Source of the DNA: Deltaproteobacteria bacterium
GTDB lineage: Bacteria; Desulfobacterota; Binatia; UBA9968
Assembly (NCBI GenBank): GCA_016874755.1
Contig: VGTH01000004.1
Span: 124,001-188,000, forward strand
DNA: 64,000 nucleotides
Direction of reading: 5' to 3'
Shown here: one piece after another, positions 33,765 through 41,453 of the stretch
Position numbering within the stretch: position 1 is the first letter of the stretch
Layout: each line of letters opens with the position of its first letter
Program-made: the position numbers and the translations under genes
Notes under the pieces: generated by a model
Seen by the model: the letters and a program-made list of their open reading frames with translations, nothing else
Databases searched by the model: none
Told to the model about the DNA's origin: nothing

Positions 33765-34898
33765 ATGGCCGAAGCAGCAAAACAAGAACCCGTCATTACT
33801 ATGTGGAGTAAGGAATTTACCTACGACCGCTGGATGAAATCGAAGGGCATTCCGATCCACAAGGGTTATTTCATTCCCGATCTGCGCACCATCGAGTTGG
33901 AATGGTGGGAAGAACGCGGCGCCAAATCCGCGTTCATTCAGCTGCTGGGCCAAGAGGGTGTCAGCGCCTCGCGCGTCACCGAAGTGCCGCCGGGGAAATC
34001 GTTGCCGCCGGTAAAGTTTGCCCTCGACGAGATCATCTATGTCTTAACCGGCCGCGGTTTAACCACGGTTTGGGCCAACGACAACAGACCGAAAAAGAAT
34101 TTCGAATACCAGGAACATTCGATGTTCTTGGTGCCGCGCAATCACTGGCACGTCTTCAGCAACATGACCGGCGATAAGCCGCTGCGGCTGTTTCATTACA
34201 GCTACATGCCGATGGCGATGTCTGCGCTTCCCGAGCCAGACATGTATTTCAACAACCCCTACGAACCGAAAATCACCGCCGATCAAGGCGACTTCTATTC
34301 GGAAGCGAAGATGGTTCAAGCGAAAGACGCCGACGAAGGCTTGGGCATGCGCGCCTTCTGGTACGGCAATTTCTTCCCCGACATGCGCGCCTGGAACAAG
34401 CTCGACGCCAACGAGCGGCGCGGCGCCGGCGGCAAGAGCGTGTTCATGCAGTTCCCCAATTCTGAATTGACCGCCCACATGTCGGTGTTCGCGCCGAAGA
34501 CTTATAAAAAGGCGCACCGTCACGGCCCCGGCCGCGCCATCATCATCCCCGCCGGCGAAGGCTATTCGATCATGTGGGAAGAGGGCAAAGAAAAGATCGT
34601 CTGCCCGTGGCACGAGTGCAGCATGATCACCCCGCCGGATAAATGGTTCCATCAACATTTTAACGCCGGCGGCGACATGGCACGCTACTTGGCGCTCCAT
34701 CCGCCGATGCAGTTCCACGGCCATGCGGAAAAAGTCGAAGACCGGGCCAAAGATCAGATCGAGTACCCGAACGAAGATCCGTTCATTCGCAAGAAGTTCG
34801 AAGACGAGTTGGGCAAGCGCGGCATCAAGAGCGAAATGCCGGCCGAATGCTACAGCAATCCAGAGTACGAGTGGTCGAAGGCGATGGGCAAACAATAG
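33765..34898 (+). CDS. Two-domain cupin protein (bicupin), copy 1
   Basis: A 377-residue protein with two cupin modules. The N-terminal module (residues about 75-150) has 'FALDEIIYVLTGRG' and 'NHWHVFSN' but lacks the HxH pair. The C-terminal module (about 235-325) has a convincing metal site: 'KKAHRHGPGRAIIIPAGEG' and 'KWFHQHFNAGG'. Layout and length resemble gentisate 1,2-dioxygenase-type bicupins, though the reaction is unknown. GGAG precedes the ATG. A close paralogue lies at 38734-39870, on the far side of a EutA-like gene and two EamA genes. Confidence 0.85.
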   Translation: MAEAAKQEPVITMWSKEFTYDRWMKSKGIPIHKGYFIPDLRTIELEWWEERGAKSAFIQLLGQEGVSASRVTEVPPGKSLPPVKFALDEIIYVLTGRGLTTVWANDNRPKKNFEYQEHSMFLVPRNHWHVFSNMTGDKPLRLFHYSYMPMAMSALPEPDMYFNNPYEPKITADQGDFYSEAKMVQAKDADEGLGMRAFWYGNFFPDMRAWNKLDANERRGAGGKSVFMQFPNSELTAHMSVFAPKTYKKAHRHGPGRAIIIPAGEGYSIMWEEGKEKIVCPWHECSMITPPDKWFHQHFNAGGDMARYLALHPPMQFHGHAEKVEDRAKDQIEYPNEDPFIRKKFEDELGKRGIKSEMPAECYSNPEYEWSKAMGKQ

Positions 34899-34934
34899 GC
34901 AGAATTACCAATCAACGACAAAAAAGGTCGGTTT

Positions 34935-34972
34935 GGAATCCCCGCTCCAGCGAGCGGGGATTCCTGTTATTG
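34935..34972 (+). terminator. 13-bp stem hairpin after bicupin 1
   Basis: GGAATCCCCGCTC (34935-34947) pairs perfectly with GAGCGGGGATTCC (34952-34964) across a 4-nt loop. The following TGTTATTGG is only weakly T-rich, so it is either an intrinsic terminator or an mRNA-stabilising hairpin. The remaining 245 nt up to the EutA-like gene hold nothing else I recognise. Confidence 0.6.
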
Positions 34973-35217
34973 GCGCCCGAGAATTTTGAGGTGCAGCGAG
35001 ATTGAGGCACAATCCTTCCGGACCGAAGGCAACAGAGTTGCGCTTACATGCCGCGATGTTGGGGCGACCTACGGATCGCCTGCGCTTTGCGAAGGACAGG
35101 GAAAGGGTCGAAAGATTGCACCAAGTGTCGAAGAACAACACGCGAGATTTGCGCTGAGGCCTTCACTCCTCCAGGATTGCACCGCAATCTCGCACTACCC
35201 AATCGTAGGAAAATAAA

Positions 35218-36762
35218 ATGGCAGAAAAAATACAGAGGCTACCCATGCACGACGATATTTACGATCACGACCATCCGGATAATTTTATTATCAAAGAAGA
35301 TGAGATCGTCACCGACATCGAAGGCTTGGAGATGTTCTCGCTTAAAAGCGTGGGCATTGACATCGGCTCTTCGACGTCGCACTTGATCTTTTCTTTGATC
35401 ACCCTGCGGCGCGAAGGCGCGTCGCTGTCGGGCAAATTCCGGGTGACCAATCGCGAGGTGCTCTATCGCTCGCCGATCATGCTGACGCCCTATCTGTCGC
35501 CGACCAAGATCGACACCGACAAGGTCAACGCTTTTATTCAGAACGCCTACAAGGAAGCCGGTTTGACGCCGGAAGACGTCGACACCGGCGCGGTCATCAT
35601 CACCGGCGAAGCGTTAAAAAAAGAGAACGCCCAGCCGATCGTCGAGAACTTCGCCAAGTACTCGGGCAAGTTCATCTGCGCTGCCGCAGGCCATAATCAC
35701 GAAGCGCTGCTCGCCGCTTATGGCTGCGGCGCCGTCGATCTGTCGAAGTCGGAACACAAAACCGTGCTCAACGTCGACATGGGTGGCGGGACGACGAAGT
35801 TCTCGCTCGTGGAAGACGGGGTGGTGACACAGACCGCGTCGATCAGCATCGGCGCGCGCCTGATCGCCTTCGACGAGAAAGATAAGATCACCCGCGTCGA
35901 AGACCCCGGCGGCACGATGATGAAAGAGCTTGGCCATGCGGTTGCGGTCGGTCAGACAATTTCCGATAAAATGAAAGAAGACTTCGGCGCCTACATGGCG
36001 AAGATTCTTTTCGAGACTATCGAGCAGGGGCCGACTTCACCAATGGCGAAATCGTTGATGGTCACGGCGCCGTTTGTCAATTACACCGGCTTCAAACAAG
36101 TGCAGCACCTGGTCTTCTCAGGTGGCGTGTCGGAGCATGTCTACGATCACGATCCCAAATCCTACGGCGACATTGGCCCAGTGCTCGGCCGCAACGTGCG
36201 CGATTATCTGAAAAAACTGCCCAAAGACGTCCTGCGCGAACCGGTGGAAGGCATCCGCGCCACCGTCATCGGCGCCGGTGAATACACCATCCAAGCGAGC
36301 GGCAACACCAGCTATGTGTCCAATGAGAAGGCTCTGCCGGTGCATGGTTTGAAAGTCATTCAAGCGCCGGTGCGCGAGGGCGAGTCGGTGGCGGCCGCGC
36401 TGCGGCAATCGCTGCGCAAGTTCGACCTGGAACACTTCACTGCCGGCCTTGCGCTGTCGCTCACGGTCGCCGGCGTGCCCGACTATCAATCGGTGCGGCG
36501 CATCGCCGAAGGCATTGCCGAGATTCTGAAAGACGCCGACGATGCCAAGTGCCCGCTCTATCTGACGTTGGATCTCGACATCGCCAAATCTCTTGGCGGC
36601 ATGTTGAAGGATGAGTTGAAAGTCAGCCGCGACATCATCGCCGTCGACGGCATCGAAGTCGGTGACTTGGATTATATCGACATCGGCGAATGTCTCGGCA
36701 TCACCGAAGTTATTCCGGTCACCGTCAAGTCGCTGATGTTCCCGACCTCAAGCAGCGACTAA
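35218..36762 (+). CDS. eutA: EutA-like ethanolamine ammonia-lyase reactivase
   Basis: A 514-residue ASKHA-fold ATPase. 'VGIDIGSSTSHLIFS' (residues about 45-59) and 'NVDMGGGTTKFSLVEDG' (about 182-198) are the phosphate-binding motifs, and 'VFSGGVSEH' is the third. EutA removes damaged cobalamin from ethanolamine ammonia-lyase. It is about 45 residues longer than enteric EutA, owing to an acidic, His/Asp-rich N-terminal extension. No eutB or eutC gene is in the window; the neighbours are bicupins and EamA transporters, so its client enzyme is either distant or different. Confidence 0.85.
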   Translation: MAEKIQRLPMHDDIYDHDHPDNFIIKEDEIVTDIEGLEMFSLKSVGIDIGSSTSHLIFSLITLRREGASLSGKFRVTNREVLYRSPIMLTPYLSPTKIDTDKVNAFIQNAYKEAGLTPEDVDTGAVIITGEALKKENAQPIVENFAKYSGKFICAAAGHNHEALLAAYGCGAVDLSKSEHKTVLNVDMGGGTTKFSLVEDGVVTQTASISIGARLIAFDEKDKITRVEDPGGTMMKELGHAVAVGQTISDKMKEDFGAYMAKILFETIEQGPTSPMAKSLMVTAPFVNYTGFKQVQHLVFSGGVSEHVYDHDPKSYGDIGPVLGRNVRDYLKKLPKDVLREPVEGIRATVIGAGEYTIQASGNTSYVSNEKALPVHGLKVIQAPVREGESVAAALRQSLRKFDLEHFTAGLALSLTVAGVPDYQSVRRIAEGIAEILKDADDAKCPLYLTLDLDIAKSLGGMLKDELKVSRDIIAVDGIEVGDLDYIDIGECLGITEVIPVTVKSLMFPTSSSD

Positions 36763-36788
36763 CAATGTGCCGCTGCGCGAGTCTCAAG

Positions 36789-36818
36789 AGGCCTCGCTAA
36801 ACGCGGGGCCTTTTTTTT
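36789..36818 (+). terminator. Intrinsic terminator after eutA-like gene
   Basis: GGCCTCG and CGGGGCC form a stem with one G-T pair around a CTAAACG loop, followed by eight T residues. It ends only 5 nt before the ATG of the EamA gene, so that gene either depends on read-through or has a promoter inside this very short region. Confidence 0.78.
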
Positions 36819-36822
36819 GCTC

Positions 36823-37683
36823 ATGGCCGAATACTATTCCCTTCAAGCCGCGCTGCTTTTTTCCATCGCGCACATTTTCGTGCGCCGCGGCCTGGTCGGT
36901 TCCAATGCCCTGACCGGTTCCGTTATTTCCCTTGGCACCAGCGCAGTGCTTTTCTGCACGATGGCTTTGTTGTGGGTACCGATCGCGCAGCATTGGAGGC
37001 CGGAGCTGGGCTATTTCATCGCCGGCGGCTTCTTTGCGCCGGCCATCGGGCAGACGCTCGGTTATATCGGCATGGAGCGCATCGGCGTCGCGCGCGCCTC
37101 GCCGATTGTCAATACGTCACCGCTCTTCTCATCGATCTTGGCGGTTTTGCTCCTCGGTGAAATCTGGGTGCAGCAGAACATCGCCGGCACACTGCTGGTG
37201 ATTCTGGGCGTGGTTATCTTGTCATCGAGCAGCGCAGCCAAAGAGCAATGGCACAAGAAGGATTTGATCTTTCCGATCCTTGCCGCTTTGGCGTTTGGCA
37301 TTTCTACGACGCTGCGCAAAACCGGATTGACCACGGTGCCGGTGCCGCTGTTGGCGGCGGCGGTGACGGTGGGCACGGCGTTTTTCGTCGTGCTCGGCAT
37401 CGTCCGGCTGCGCGGCGGCTTCCAAAAACTAAATTTCACCAAGACCAGCAGCGCCTGGATGTTCGCCGGCGCCATCGTCAACTCCGGCGCGATCCTGTCG
37501 TTTTTTTCCGCGTTAAGCGTCGGCAGCATCGTGCGGGTGGAGCCGCTGGTGGCTTGCAATCCGCTGCTGACGATGATCTGGGCGTCGATTTTCTTGCGCC
37601 AAATCGAAACTCTGTCGAGCCGAAGTGTGCTCGGCGGCTTAGTCACCGTGGCCGGCACGGTACTGGTAGTGATGGTCAAGTAG
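36823..37683 (+). CDS. EamA/DMT family transporter, copy 1
   Basis: A 286-residue drug/metabolite transporter with ten predicted helices and the internal EamA duplication ('GYIGMERIGVARASPIVNTS' in the first half, 'ALSVGSIVRVEPLVACNPLL' in the second). The ATG at 36823 has no visible ribosome site and directly follows a terminator. It is followed 7 nt later by a homologous gene of the same length. The substrate is unknown; export or uptake of the metabolite handled by the flanking bicupins is plausible. Confidence 0.85.
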   Translation: MAEYYSLQAALLFSIAHIFVRRGLVGSNALTGSVISLGTSAVLFCTMALLWVPIAQHWRPELGYFIAGGFFAPAIGQTLGYIGMERIGVARASPIVNTSPLFSSILAVLLLGEIWVQQNIAGTLLVILGVVILSSSSAAKEQWHKKDLIFPILAALAFGISTTLRKTGLTTVPVPLLAAAVTVGTAFFVVLGIVRLRGGFQKLNFTKTSSAWMFAGAIVNSGAILSFFSALSVGSIVRVEPLVACNPLLTMIWASIFLRQIETLSSRSVLGGLVTVAGTVLVVMVK

Positions 37684-37690
37684 GCAGGCC

Positions 37691-38551
37691 CTGGACATCT
37701 ATTTTTCCTTTCAAGCGGCGCTGTACTTCTCGATCGCCCATATCCTGATTCGGCGCGGGCTGACTGAGTCGAACGCGATGACCGGCGCGTTCATCTCGCT
37801 GTCCATGAGCGCCGTCGTGCTCTGGTGCGCGCTGCCGTTTTTCGTGCCGCTTTCGGCACTGGCCGATCCCGCCATATTGATCTTTGTTGCGGCGGGAATT
37901 TTTGCACCGGGTATCGGCCGGACTTTGAGCTATGTCGGTATCGAAAGAATCGGCGTGGCGCGCTCGGTGCCGATTGTTAACTCCTCGCCGATCTTCGCAT
38001 CGGTTTTTGCGGTGATCTTTCTCGCCGAAGCCTGGGTGCTACAAAATATCGTCGGCACCCTGCTGGTGATCGGCGGCATTGTGATACTTTCCATGGCCAA
38101 GCCGGCCCAAGGCGAATGGCGCAAGATCGATATCATCTATCCTTTGATCGGCGCGGTCGCGTTCGGCATCTCCACGACGCTGCGTAAGGCCGGGCTCGGT
38201 TACATCAATATCCCGCTGCTCGCCGCGGCGATGACGGCGGGTGCCGGCGCGCTGTTCTCGTTGGCGTTGCTCAAGTATCAAGGCGGCAGCAAGGCTTTTA
38301 AACTCACGCGCAATAGCGCCGCCTGGCTGTTTCCCGCGGGAGCTTTTAATACCGCGGCGATGCTGTCGGTATTCTTCGCCTTGAGCCACGGCAAAGTCGT
38401 CATCGTCGAGCCGCTGGTAAGCTCCAATCCGGTGTTGACGCTGACGCTGACGGCAATTTTCCTACGCGACGTCGAGTCGATCTCGCTGCGGGTCATCATC
38501 GGTTCCGCGCTGACGGTGACCGGGACGATCTTGGTGGTGCTGGTGAAATGA
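37691..38551 (+). CDS. EamA/DMT family transporter, copy 2 (probable CTG start)
   Basis: Paralogue of copy 1, with 'GIERIGVARSVPIVNSSPIF' and 'ALSHGKVVIVEPLVSSNPVL' aligning directly. The first ATG (37778) would remove 29 residues and the first helix. In the same frame upstream the sequence reads DIYFSFQAALYFSIAHI, matching copy 1's AEYYSLQAALLFSIAHI, and the position of copy 1's Met is taken by a CTG codon at 37691. With that start the protein has 286 residues, identical in length to copy 1. A stop at 37670-37672 rules out a much earlier start. It probably works as a pair with copy 1. Confidence 0.82.
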   Translation: MDIYFSFQAALYFSIAHILIRRGLTESNAMTGAFISLSMSAVVLWCALPFFVPLSALADPAILIFVAAGIFAPGIGRTLSYVGIERIGVARSVPIVNSSPIFASVFAVIFLAEAWVLQNIVGTLLVIGGIVILSMAKPAQGEWRKIDIIYPLIGAVAFGISTTLRKAGLGYINIPLLAAAMTAGAGALFSLALLKYQGGSKAFKLTRNSAAWLFPAGAFNTAAMLSVFFALSHGKVVIVEPLVSSNPVLTLTLTAIFLRDVESISLRVIIGSALTVTGTILVVLVK

Positions 38552-38580
38552 GCGCTATGGGATGATAGATTATCAGCTTT

Positions 38581-38697
38581 GCTGAAAAACCGATCGGGGT
38601 CCTTCGACAAGCTCAGGACGAACGGAATTGAAGTCTCAAACATGTCACAAAATCCGTTCATGCTGAGCTTGTCGAAGCATTCTTCGGGGTTTTCAGC
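38581..38697. repeat. 117-nt inverted-repeat element
   Basis: Starts with GCTGAAAA and ends with TTTTCAGC. Inside, GTCCTTCGACAAGCTCAGGA and onward to CGAACGG (38599-38625) faces CCGTTCATGCTGAGCTTGTC and onward (about 38653-38682), the near-perfect reverse complement. It is the most complete copy of the family also found at 29165-29262 and 18257-18284. It separates the second EamA gene from bicupin 2. Confidence 0.88.
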
Positions 38698-38733
38698 AGA
38701 ATCATTACCTAGATCTACTTTTTGGAGGAAATC

Positions 38734-39870
38734 ATGTCGAAGGCGATGCAGGGCGAGCGAAAAATGTGGAGCAAAGTGTACACCTACGACGAATGGATGG
38801 AAGCCCAGGGCGTGCCCATCTATCGCGGCTACTACATCGAGGATCTGCGCACGTTGCAGTTAGGGTGGTGGGATGCGCGGCAGTGCCATTCGGCATTCAT
38901 TCAATTGGTCGGGCAGGAAGGCGTGACTTCTGCCCGGGTGACCGAGATCCCCGCCGGCAAGACGCTGCCACCGCTCAAGTTCGCTCTCGATGAAATTGTT
39001 TACGTTGTCGAAGGCCGCGGCCTGACAACGATTTGGGCAGGAGATAAACGGCCGCGCAAGACCTTTGAGTGGCAAAAGCACAGCATGTTCTTGCTGCCGC
39101 ACAATTACACCCATCAGTTCACCAATATGCAGGGCGACAAGCCGGTGCGTTTGCTGCACTATAATTACATGCCGCTGACGTTATCAGGCGTGCGCGATGT
39201 CAATTTCATCTTCGGCAGCAATTACGAAAGCAACGACATCCAGAACGAGATGGATTTTTACTCCGAAGCCAAGATGGTCTCACAGAACCAGCTCGACGAG
39301 ACTTGGGGCCGGCGTGCCTACTGGTTCGGCAATTTCTTTCCCGACATGCGCGCCTGGGATAAGCTCGACACCAATGCGCGCCGGGGAGCCGGCGGGCGCA
39401 GCGTTTACATTCAATTTCCCGATTCAGAAATGTCGTGCCACATGTCGGTGTTCGACGCGCGGTTGTACAAGAAAGCGCACCGCCACGGCCCCGGCCGCGT
39501 CATTGTGATTCCGGTCGGGGAGGGCTACTCGATCATGTGGGAAGAGGGCAAAGAAAAGGTCGTGGTGCCGTGGCACGAAGCCAGCCTCTTCGTGCCGCCG
39601 AACAAATGGTTTCATCAACACTTCAACGCCGGCGGCGAACCGGCACGCTACCTGGCGCTTCACCCGCCCATGCAGTTCCACGGCCATGCGGAAAAAGTCG
39701 AAGACCGTGCCAAGGATCAGATCGAGTACTGCAACGAAGACAAATGGGTACGCGAAAAATTCGAGGGCGAGCTGGCGAGCCGCGGGCTGACTTCACTAAT
39801 GCCGCCGGAGGCGTATTCCAATCCCGATTTTGAATGGAACTGGAAGCCGTTTGTGCAGAGCGCGAAATAG
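38734..39870 (+). CDS. Two-domain cupin protein (bicupin), copy 2
   Basis: A 378-residue paralogue of the bicupin at 33765-34898, co-linear over its whole length. The C-terminal metal site is again 'KKAHRHGPGRVIVIPVGEG' with 'KWFHQHFNAGG'; the N-terminal module has 'FALDEIVYVVEGRG' without HxH. The ATG at 38734 lies 5 nt after GGAGG; an in-frame TTG at 38722 overlaps that site. Conservation of both copies around one locus suggests two related substrates or a hetero-oligomer. Confidence 0.85.
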   Translation: MSKAMQGERKMWSKVYTYDEWMEAQGVPIYRGYYIEDLRTLQLGWWDARQCHSAFIQLVGQEGVTSARVTEIPAGKTLPPLKFALDEIVYVVEGRGLTTIWAGDKRPRKTFEWQKHSMFLLPHNYTHQFTNMQGDKPVRLLHYNYMPLTLSGVRDVNFIFGSNYESNDIQNEMDFYSEAKMVSQNQLDETWGRRAYWFGNFFPDMRAWDKLDTNARRGAGGRSVYIQFPDSEMSCHMSVFDARLYKKAHRHGPGRVIVIPVGEGYSIMWEEGKEKVVVPWHEASLFVPPNKWFHQHFNAGGEPARYLALHPPMQFHGHAEKVEDRAKDQIEYCNEDKWVREKFEGELASRGLTSLMPPEAYSNPDFEWNWKPFVQSAK

Positions 39871-39892: not shown

Positions 39893-39921
39893 AAAGCCCC
39901 GCTCAACGCGGGGCTTTTTTT
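39893..39921 (+). terminator. Strong intrinsic terminator after bicupin 2
   Basis: AAAGCCCCGC pairs perfectly with GCGGGGCTTT across a TCAAC loop, with a run of T residues to 39921. The hairpin can also serve the converging binding-protein gene, since the A residues on the left give that strand a T-tract. Confidence 0.9.
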
Positions 39922-39936
39922 GGACGTGGTGAGCGG

Positions 39937-40839
39937 CTATGCCGCCTTCACCGCGCCGGCCACGGCCCATTCGGCGGCGATCTCGCGCACCTGGGCGGAT
40001 TTTCCCGGCGCGACTTGGCCGACCAGTTTGCTCAGGTGTGCGAGATCGATCTGCAGCGACTCGTCCATGTGACCAAGATATTGCTCAAAGACTTTGTCGG
40101 CTAAGAGCTGACCGTGGCCGAACTTGGTCTTCAACAACTCGATCACTTTGGCCCGGTTGGCTTTGGCATAAACGATGCCCTCGCGATGGGCGGTAACAAA
40201 AGCTTTGAAATCGGCGGCCCGGTCCCGGGCAAGCTGCGCTGTGGTTTCGATGGAAATACATAGCGGGTCATCGACGATATCGGGCCAGGCGCTGAGACGG
40301 CGACACCCCTTTTCCTCGGCGACGAAGCCATAGGGGCGCGGCACCAGCGCCGCGGTGGCTCTCTTATCCAAGAGACGGTGAAACGCCTCTTGGTCGCTGG
40401 CGACGAGGTCGAGTTTGACATCGCTGCCGATGGTCAGACCGCCGATCTGTTGAAATGTTGCGCCGAGCGGCACACCGCGCGCCGGCCCCTCGCGACAGAC
40501 CACCGTGCCGCCCTTTAGATCCGCAATTTCTTTGATCGCGCCATCGGCGACCAACCAGTAGGGGCAACTGTTCATGGCGCAGCCCAGCAATCGGCTTGCC
40601 TTGGTGTCCAGAAAATGCGGCAGCGATGCGCGCGCGACGACGAACGAAATCTGCGCTTCTCCGGTTCCCAGTCGGCGATAACGTTCTTCGGTACCCTGCA
40701 CGTGGTTCCACGACACTTCGAGCCCGTGCTTGGCGTAGATGCCGGCATCGATGGCCAAGTAACCGGTAATGTCGCGCGCGAACTTTGGCTCAATGCCTTC
40801 GAGATGACCGTACATGCAATTGATTTTGGTTATCGACAC
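39937..40839 (-). CDS. NMT1/THI5-like binding protein without signal peptide
   Basis: A 300-residue solute-binding-fold protein: 'GYLAIDAGIYAKHGLEVSW' near the N-terminus and 'IADLKGGTVVCREGPARG' in the middle. Unlike the other binding proteins here it has no hydrophobic leader; the best start is GTG at 40839 with AAGGAG 7 nt upstream, giving a soluble N-terminus. It may therefore be cytoplasmic, like the THI5 pyrimidine synthases that share this fold, or it may act as a sensor or enzyme. Divergent from a cupin gene. Confidence 0.78.
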   Translation of the reverse strand: MSITKINCMYGHLEGIEPKFARDITGYLAIDAGIYAKHGLEVSWNHVQGTEERYRRLGTGEAQISFVVARASLPHFLDTKASRLLGCAMNSCPYWLVADGAIKEIADLKGGTVVCREGPARGVPLGATFQQIGGLTIGSDVKLDLVASDQEAFHRLLDKRATAALVPRPYGFVAEEKGCRRLSAWPDIVDDPLCISIETTAQLARDRAADFKAFVTAHREGIVYAKANRAKVIELLKTKFGHGQLLADKVFEQYLGHMDESLQIDLAHLSKLVGQVAPGKSAQVREIAAEWAVAGAVKAA

Positions 40840-41021
40840 AGCGTTTCTCCTTCGACGTGTGCGCTCAAACGACAGCCACAAGCACGAGTCACGAACAATG
40901 AATTACGACCTTCTATAGTACGCTTGGCTGTGCGGTACAAACTTCGCCTTGACAGAACTTTGACAACGGGACTAGAGTCACGCCGTCTGAAGCACCAACC
41001 CCATTTTAGAAGGAGGTTACG

Positions 41022-41453
41022 ATGAAAGTTTTAGACGTGTTGGAAACGTCCAAGGGGCGCAAGAAAGGCCAGCGGCGCATTGATTTATTTCGCCGCGAAA
41101 ATTTAGAAACGTGGATCTTGATCTTCCCACCCGGCGATGTGCAGCGCATGCACAACCATCCCTCGGACCGGACCTACTATGTGCTCACCGGCAAGGGCAT
41201 CATGAAAGGGCGCAACGAGACCCATGAGCTGAGGCAGGGGGAAATCATTAGTATCCCTGCGCATGAGTTTTACGAAGGCTCGAACCCGTTCGACGAACCG
41301 ATGATTTTGCTGGGCAATAGCCACAAGGCGACGGCAGAAGATCTTGCTAAAGCCGGCGGCCAGCGCAATGAAATTGACGATAAGACCGGCAAGCGCGTCA
41401 TCTTTCAGCATGGCGGCGGTCAGGACATGGGCGTCTTGGCTGACTGGAATTAA
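41022..41453 (+). CDS. Single-domain cupin protein
   Basis: A 143-residue cupin: 'RMHNHPSDRTYYVLTGKGIM' carries the HxH and downstream residues of motif 1, and 'LRQGEIISIPAHEFYEGSN' is motif 2 with its His. A mononuclear metal site is likely. AGAAGGAGG stands in ideal position before the ATG. The C-terminal part from residue 105 is charged and outside the barrel. Divergent from the leaderless binding-protein gene, so the 182 nt between them should hold both promoters. Confidence 0.83.
   Translation: MKVLDVLETSKGRKKGQRRIDLFRRENLETWILIFPPGDVQRMHNHPSDRTYYVLTGKGIMKGRNETHELRQGEIISIPAHEFYEGSNPFDEPMILLGNSHKATAEDLAKAGGQRNEIDDKTGKRVIFQHGGGQDMGVLADWN

Follow-up and report, generated by a model that had tools for sequence, protein, structure and literature searches.

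The DNA studied here, referred to as the window, is a stretch of 64,000 nucleotides (nt) from a Deltaproteobacteria bacterium and lies on contig C4 of its genome (5.56 Mb, 99.55% complete). "Binatia" is used below as a label for the host group; the nearest public relatives are metagenome-assembled genomes (MAGs) that carry the names Binatia, Deltaproteobacteria or 'Syntrophobacter sp. SbD2'. An earlier note on this DNA had described the gene order bicupin, EutA-like, EamA, EamA, bicupin, and all five open reading frames (ORFs) were found in that order 3' of an atp operon. The EutA-like product is a predicted ATPase of the actin/Hsp70 (ASKHA) fold. The locus contains the following features:

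33765..34898, + strand: bicupin A, type I, 377 aa, paired with the EutA-like gene 3' of it; C-terminal cupin with metal site H251/H253/H296 (+H298)
34935..34964, + strand: 13-bp hairpin 3' of bicupin A, with a poor T tract; folding z -4.0 against shuffles; in the terminator scan
35245..36762, + strand: EutA-like ATPase of the ASKHA fold, 505 aa; N-terminal tail MHDDIYDHDHPDNF, rich in His and Asp; the ORF opens at 35218
36786..36814, + strand: intrinsic-terminator-like hairpin with a T8 tail, 3' of the EutA-like gene; z -3.8; in the terminator scan
36817..37683, + strand: EamA-family transporter 1; start 36817 TTG or 36823 ATG; Pfam EamA
37694..38551, + strand: EamA-family transporter 2; homologous coding from ~37694, first ATG 37778; Pfam EamA
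38722..39870, + strand: bicupin B, 382 aa, 66% identical to its paralogue bicupin A and sharing its metal-site residues; start 38722 TTG or 38734 ATG
~39893..39917, + strand: terminator-like hairpin with a T tract, 3' of bicupin B; z -4.8 against shuffles; missing from the terminator scan

The hairpins that had been noted after both bicupins and after the EutA-like gene thus all fold better than shuffled sequences; the terminator scan returned 12 sites in all against 9.1 (sd 3.0) in shuffles, which is no excess. The most likely start of the EutA-like gene is 35245 rather than 35218, since several orthologues begin there and an AGAGG lies upstream. With Pfam Cupin_2, bicupin A scored 32.4 bits (cut-off 27.2) and bicupin B 27.1, just under; the two EamA proteins matched their profile at ~86 bits each.

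EutB (PF06751) was sought with E. coli recovered as the positive control in each search. None was found in the entire genome that carries the window (EutC was not searched), which bears out, for eutB, the remark that EutBC is lacking here. The same genome holds four full-length EutA-like genes. Across its order, EutA-like genes were present at E <= 1e-40 in 35/35 genomes, with 1 to 6 matches each, and EutB in 0/35. Among 42 further genomes with EutA-like loci, EutB was found in three (two Acidocella and one Acidobacteria MAG).

Linkage of EutA-like and bicupin genes

Public genomes were scanned with the four EutA paralogues and the best 80 loci were kept, so that the set is biased towards relatives of these paralogues; it was not dereplicated. 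Adding our own genome, E. coli and further loci brought the total to 102 EutA ORFs. Eight were references (E. coli, two more EutB-linked genes and five of a type linked to aldehyde ferredoxin oxidoreductase, AFOR), leaving 94 EutA-like ORFs. A bicupin gene stood beside 65 of the 94, no more than 400 nt away on the same strand in 59 cases and up to 1.5 kb away on the opposite strand in six. The other 29 comprised 18 members of a DUF4175-linked subfamily and 11 others; leaving out the DUF4175-linked subfamily, the fraction was 65/76. By our estimate, adjacency would arise by chance in about 1% of cases (27 bicupins among ~5000 genes, two neighbours). Binatia, Chloroflexota, Pseudomonadota and Actinomycetota all had such pairs. 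The gap within 53 adjacent pairs had a median of 55 nt, with 30 nt or less in 20 of them.

A separate gene call placed a bicupin within six genes of EutA in 55/80 loci. The next commonest neighbours, families of 138, 470 and 286 aa found in 13–15 loci, agree in size and order with the window's atp genes, which points to shared descent. EamA genes lay within six genes of EutA in just 10/80 loci, which rules them out as core members. The conserved unit is the bicupin plus the EutA-like gene; the EamA genes and the 'symmetric' layout are a local elaboration. The earlier note had wondered whether the pair recurs in other genomes, or whether eutBC lies elsewhere in this genome and the linkage is not conserved; the linkage is conserved and the genome has no eutB. 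Conserved linkage to a bicupin and EutA without EutB together point to service of a different metal enzyme.

Two further samples, which partly overlap the 80 loci because genomes recur, were examined. The order sample consisted of 40 EutA neighbourhoods: all 38 from ten genomes of the order and one each from G406 and G419. Here a bicupin was adjacent to 11/11 genes of the window type and 10/10 of the C60 type; for the C13 type, 2/5 were adjacent and another 2/5 had a bicupin within 2.5 kb. The C13 gene of our own genome, one of the 11 non-DUF4175 ORFs counted above as lacking a bicupin, has one 1.8 kb downstream on the same strand. Genes with C59 as their best hit were adjacent in 3/14 cases, with one more within 2.5 kb; these four are just 43–45% identical to C59 and represent a further type, and the ten that are close to C59 have no bicupin. 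The 29 genomes from the class of Chloroflexota genome G446 gave 25 EutA matches, of which 14 had an adjacent bicupin on the same strand and three more had one within 2 kb. In one locus with a C13-type EutA (L035:6806-8375), two Haem_oxygenas_2 genes (iron-containing redox enzyme) lie between it and its bicupin. In Marinobacter algicola (L106:5235-6743), a second EutA-like gene beside a bicupin is split into two ORFs, and an intact pair is present in the same locus.

Tree distances of EutA and bicupin were correlated over 36 dereplicated pairs (r 0.45), with 0/5000 permutations as high, also when partners were shuffled only inside taxonomic groups. Within groups, r was 0.95 in Binatia (9 pairs, 0/5000) and 0.35 in Chloroflexota (17 pairs, p 0.0006). 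The pairing rule took the upstream bicupin first, and in Acidocella arrays this gives both EutA genes one bicupin; post hoc re-pairing in L114 and L123 raised the whole set to r 0.54 (0/5000). Both of these loci have the order EutA, bicupin, EutA, bicupin, with two EutA types that each have a matching bicupin type, and L117 shows the same order with its last bicupin cut by the contig end. In Rhizobiales locus L120 a single bicupin lies between two EutA genes. Across Binatia, Chloroflexota, Pseudomonadota and Phytohabitans, the usual neighbour of type I EutA (38 rows) is a bicupin from a single clade of 47 rows with support 100. All trees were quick or FastTree trees with long branches, and weight was put on the pairing and not on deep forks.

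The two genes also co-occurred at the level of genomes. In a phylum sample of 395 genomes, where 3–4 candidates were scored per genome, bicupins (E <= 1e-30) were found in exactly three (G000, G198 and G305), the same three that had bicupin-type EutA, and in none of the five genomes with AFOR-type or the two with EutB-linked EutA. The 29 genomes of the G446 class divided into 11 with both genes, two with a bicupin alone, 16 with neither and none with EutA alone (Fisher p 2e-6, not corrected for kinship).

The EutA-like ATPase and the bicupin

The window EutA-like protein matched the Pfam EutA profile (PF06277) at 404 bits (cut-off 27) over positions 3–474 of 475, that is, over its full length. 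It shares this match and the ASKHA core motifs with the EutA reactivase (PF06277; NCBIfam PRK10719 models), but differs from it in its His/Asp-rich extension, its bicupin partner, a genome without EutB, and scores below the cut-offs of all four NCBIfam EutA models matched (best 353 vs 598 bits). In a quick tree with long branches and no inferred root, 91 EutA-like rows lay on one side of a branch with support 97, apart from the EutB-linked L170, L171 and L177. The structural model, with a predicted local distance difference test score (pLDDT) of 84.7, was assigned to the ASKHA ATPase fold by Foldseek, with Ppx/GppA proteins as the top hits and DnaK and 1hux also among the hits. A sequence search for solved relatives gave MreB as its best match (E 0.0013) and no EutA structure. 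The DIGSST, DxGGGT and SGG motifs were invariant or almost so in the alignment.

Ahead of the first ASKHA motif, the EutA-like proteins have a His- and Asp-rich extension that often starts with MHD, as in MHDDIYDHDHPDNF (window) and MHDDHDHGHDHEHG (L101). Among 63 aligned proteins, at least 90% have His at residue 2. The window extension is 34 residues long, has three His within its first 10 residues (MHDDIYDHDH) and is predicted to be disordered over residues 1–23 (pLDDT <50). NCBIfam EutA models have few residues in this region: the four models extend ~5 residues upstream of the match start, which is at window residue 41–42 (numbered from 35218). Counting as a tail at least three His either within the 45 residues preceding the motif or among the 22 at the C-terminal end, we found one in 63 of 71 measurable non-DUF4175 rows (two further rows lacked the motif) and in 18/18 DUF4175-type rows, compared to 0/5 AFOR-type and 0/3 EutB-linked EutA. 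In the non-DUF4175 proteins His made up 9.7% of the N-terminal extension vs 2.0% of the core. Some EutA-like proteins (L124, L160, L123) have a poly-His C-terminus. Fusion of EutA to another domain was considered for two long open frames (L214, L157) and rejected, since the extra N-terminal residues precede an internal Met that matches the orthologue starts. A further long frame, of 1065 aa, was seen in L206.

The conserved C-terminal metal site reported for both bicupins was confirmed and extended: H251, H253, H296 and H298 (bicupin A numbering) are invariant in 64 aligned bicupins, including both window copies, and an HxH in the motif region of the N-terminal cupin (columns 78–96) occurs in 1/64. 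An AlphaFold2 model of the protein had a bicupin fold (pLDDT 88.9). Its best neighbours by VIA-align were gentisate/salicylate 1,2-dioxygenases (3bu7, 2phd), with Z 20.6 and 20.4; for 3bu7 (Z 20.6) the root-mean-square deviation was 4.2 over 271 aligned residues. The bicupin shares the KAHRH...GxGYS-like motif of the 3bu7 C-terminal cupin, but identity to these dioxygenases is only 9–16%, and it is the C-terminal cupin that holds its invariant metal residues, whereas 3bu7 has HRH in the N-terminal one. Gentisate dioxygenase binds iron in its N-terminal cupin. Seed globulins and oxalate decarboxylase followed at Z 17.7–18.8, within 2 Z units of the dioxygenases, so that the enzyme class is a lead and not an identification. 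With Foldseek alone, the first-ranked hits were oxalate decarboxylase, MncA and seed globulins (TM ~0.45). Assignment to a named dioxygenase by sequence model was rejected, as no bicupin match exceeded a cut-off: with TIGR02272 and MabB, the named dioxygenase models of NCBIfam, bicupin A gave no hit at E 0.01 and bicupin B reached 22 of 650 bits to MabB.

The genome has 27 matches to bicupin A at E <= 0.001, and the family profile finds 25 at E <= 1e-30; genomes of the order have 3 to 33 copies. Bicupin paralogues of this genome sit among Rieske, Amidohydro_2, UbiD and NMT1-type genes, which together with the structural likeness to gentisate/salicylate dioxygenases suggests a role in aromatic or related catabolism. 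Many predicted gentisate dioxygenases are mentioned for SAR202-VII-2 in PMC6123686. Two paralogues of our own genome (C22:26285-27346 and C2:130182-131195) have one in-frame stop each, perhaps a sign of ongoing expansion and decay.

Other EutA branches

The phylum search also yielded five tailless EutA genes near which no EutB was found; through these a further branch was recognised, present in 27/85 genomes of the G273 class. We collected 25 loci of this branch (L172–L175 and L178–L197 among them), from 23 of these 27 genomes and two genomes outside the class. An AFOR gene and a 4Fe-4S protein gene, mostly with a gene for a 97-aa protein, were near EutA in 21/25 loci, in varying order and orientation; AFOR was not seen in the other four, one of which is a short contig. 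Neither EutB nor a bicupin was found in the 25 loci. AFORs are tungsten enzymes, and this linkage ties an EutA branch to a second kind of metal enzyme. The 97-aa protein is zinc-ribbon-like, judging from its cysteines, and the 4Fe-4S protein is ferredoxin-like.

The DUF4175-linked subfamily consists of L033:11803-13377 and 17 related loci (L124–L145), and its C-terminal poly-His tails are the longest seen. DUF4175 and MoxR-type genes lie on one side of the EutA-like gene in L033; on the other side its relatives have genes for a metallo-beta-lactamase-fold protein, a 61-aa membrane-like peptide and TPR, 4Fe-4S and PYC_OADA-domain proteins. A DUF4175-sized gene is present in 12 of these loci.

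Possible role of the pair

The adjacency, the agreement of the trees and the co-occurrence make it very probable that the EutA-like protein and the bicupin are functional partners. More specifically, the EutA-like protein may be a dedicated ATP-driven chaperone that loads or repairs the metal of the bicupin, a reading to which we give an even chance. It belongs to the EutA branch of the ASKHA fold but would not serve ethanolamine ammonia-lyase. In the mechanism that we infer, from physical binding to metal loading or repair, it would bind the bicupin and open it using ATP, its flexible His/Asp-rich tail would gather a metal ion, and the mononuclear metal of the C-terminal cupin (His251/253/296) would be loaded or swapped. 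Iron and an aromatic or related substrate would fit the most likely identity of the bicupin, a gentisate-dioxygenase-like oxygenase of the iron type; both metal and substrate are extrapolated in the same way. EutA is described in PMC9426561 as exchanging adenosylcobalamin (AdoCbl) for cob(II)alamin (Co(II)Cbl) on ethanolamine ammonia-lyase, and loading or exchange of metal by an ATPase that opens the bicupin would be the simplest transfer of this activity.

Two known kinds of helper offer partial parallels. HypB, UreE and SlyD are His-tailed metallochaperones, and the EutA-like protein resembles them in having a flexible His-rich tail on a helper encoded beside its metalloenzyme; it differs in fold, and the likeness is drawn from sequence and model. 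The ASKHA activators, such as component A of 2-hydroxyglutaryl-CoA dehydratase (1hux), have the same nucleotide-binding fold and a metal-centre enzyme as partner; these activators carry an iron-sulfur cluster, and the partner of the EutA-like protein is instead a cupin. In the open-licence papers searched we found none linking EutA to cupins, AFOR or metal delivery; those retrieved included one on the Eut microcompartment of C. difficile and one on ectoine EutA.

Several observations weigh against a dedicated partnership or against a role for the tail. Most bicupins have no adjoining EutA (27 matches against four full-length EutA in our own genome), so that either one ATPase serves several of them or most need none. 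Conversely, bicupins are missing within the limits used from the 11 non-DUF4175 ORFs, from the vicinity of 8/25 EutA genes in the G446 class (one at a contig edge) and from all 18 DUF4175-linked loci, despite the tails of that subfamily. The C60 type lacks the tail (e.g., L034, L199) though it is bicupin-adjacent in all ten cases, and L118 and L136 lack it too; the tail is thus common but not essential. Tree agreement was absent in the mixed remaining group (r 0.03, p 0.30, 9 pairs) and still weak there after the post hoc re-pairing (r 0.31, 298/5000 as high). In L161 and L157 the neighbours of type I bicupins are EutA of other types, and the only bicupin next to the type I EutA of L120 is of the other type. 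In the window itself, bicupin A and the EutA-like gene are 346 nt apart, with a hairpin between them.

A chaperone of the general Hsp70 kind, which helps the bicupin to fold or assemble and has no metal role, would fit the adjacency and the tree pairing, and the ASKHA fold, the DnaK hit and the bicupin-linked types without His tails are in its favour. We consider it unlikely, given the His/Asp-rich tails of most members and the invariant metal-binding histidines of the client. ASKHA folds also include sugar kinases and Ppx/GppA, and Ppx/GppA proteins were the top Foldseek hits; a catalytic kinase or phosphatase acting on a pathway substrate, with the ATPase and the bicupin as successive enzymes, would fit the close pairing as well. 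This is a little harder to credit, because the full-length EutA match (404 bits) far exceeds that to Ppx/GppA in Pfam (20.5, below the cut-off of 27), the His-rich tails would have no role, and gene contexts vary between phyla.

The known client of EutA is a cobalamin enzyme (PMC9426561), and a single ATPase for many unlinked bicupins would be odd; the EutA-like protein might accordingly reactivate a cobalamin enzyme other than EutBC elsewhere in the genome, with the bicupin sharing its pathway by metabolism only. This we regard as improbable: the EutB searches were almost uniformly negative in the order and in the further genomes with loci, the partner that tracks EutA subtype is the bicupin, and another EutA branch is linked to AFOR, a non-cobalamin enzyme. 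A Pfam scan of 48 neighbour proteins showed no corrinoid enzyme; beyond these, the genome was searched for EutB only. Of the earlier suggestion that the EutA-like protein repairs a different cobalamin or metal enzyme, the metal enzyme thus gains from the conserved bicupin linkage and the cobalamin enzyme finds no support. The accompanying suggestion of an amino-alcohol substrate is unsupported too, with EutB absent and no ethanolamine gene among the scanned neighbours. Finally, the genes could be adjacent through descent or catabolic islands with no functional link; in many loci the Binatia type I pair follows the atp operon, and linkage is partly inherited. Since the linkage recurs in several phyla amid otherwise different neighbours, the trees agree beyond taxonomy and the genes co-occur in genomes, we consider this very improbable.

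If the EutA-like protein is a metal-loading or repair chaperone, mononuclear non-haem oxygenases would have a dedicated ATPase for this purpose; we know of no such ATPase. More tentatively, the EutA family may comprise general ATP-driven machines for the repair or loading of metal centres rather than accessories of cobalamin enzymes as such, serving AdoCbl-dependent EutBC, tungsten AFOR and, through the large His-tailed branch, a family of bicupin oxygenases that has gone unrecognised and is found in several phyla. Naming by family would in any case mislead, as full-length EutA matches occur in genomes without ethanolamine ammonia-lyase. The proposed role would also make the large expansion of bicupins in uncultured bacteria from soil and sea testable in named strains, loci being present in Marinobacter algicola DG893 (L106) and Phytohabitans maris (L136).

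Three minor features of the window lie outside the pair. Homologous coding in EamA 2 extends 5' of its first ATG (37694-37778) and has no ATG, GTG or TTG there, making a CTG start likely. Between EamA 2 and bicupin B, a short inverted repeat-like sequence was spotted by eye (38598-38690). The region 3' of bicupin B (39937-41453) encodes an NMT1-like substrate-binding protein on the minus strand and a small single-domain cupin.

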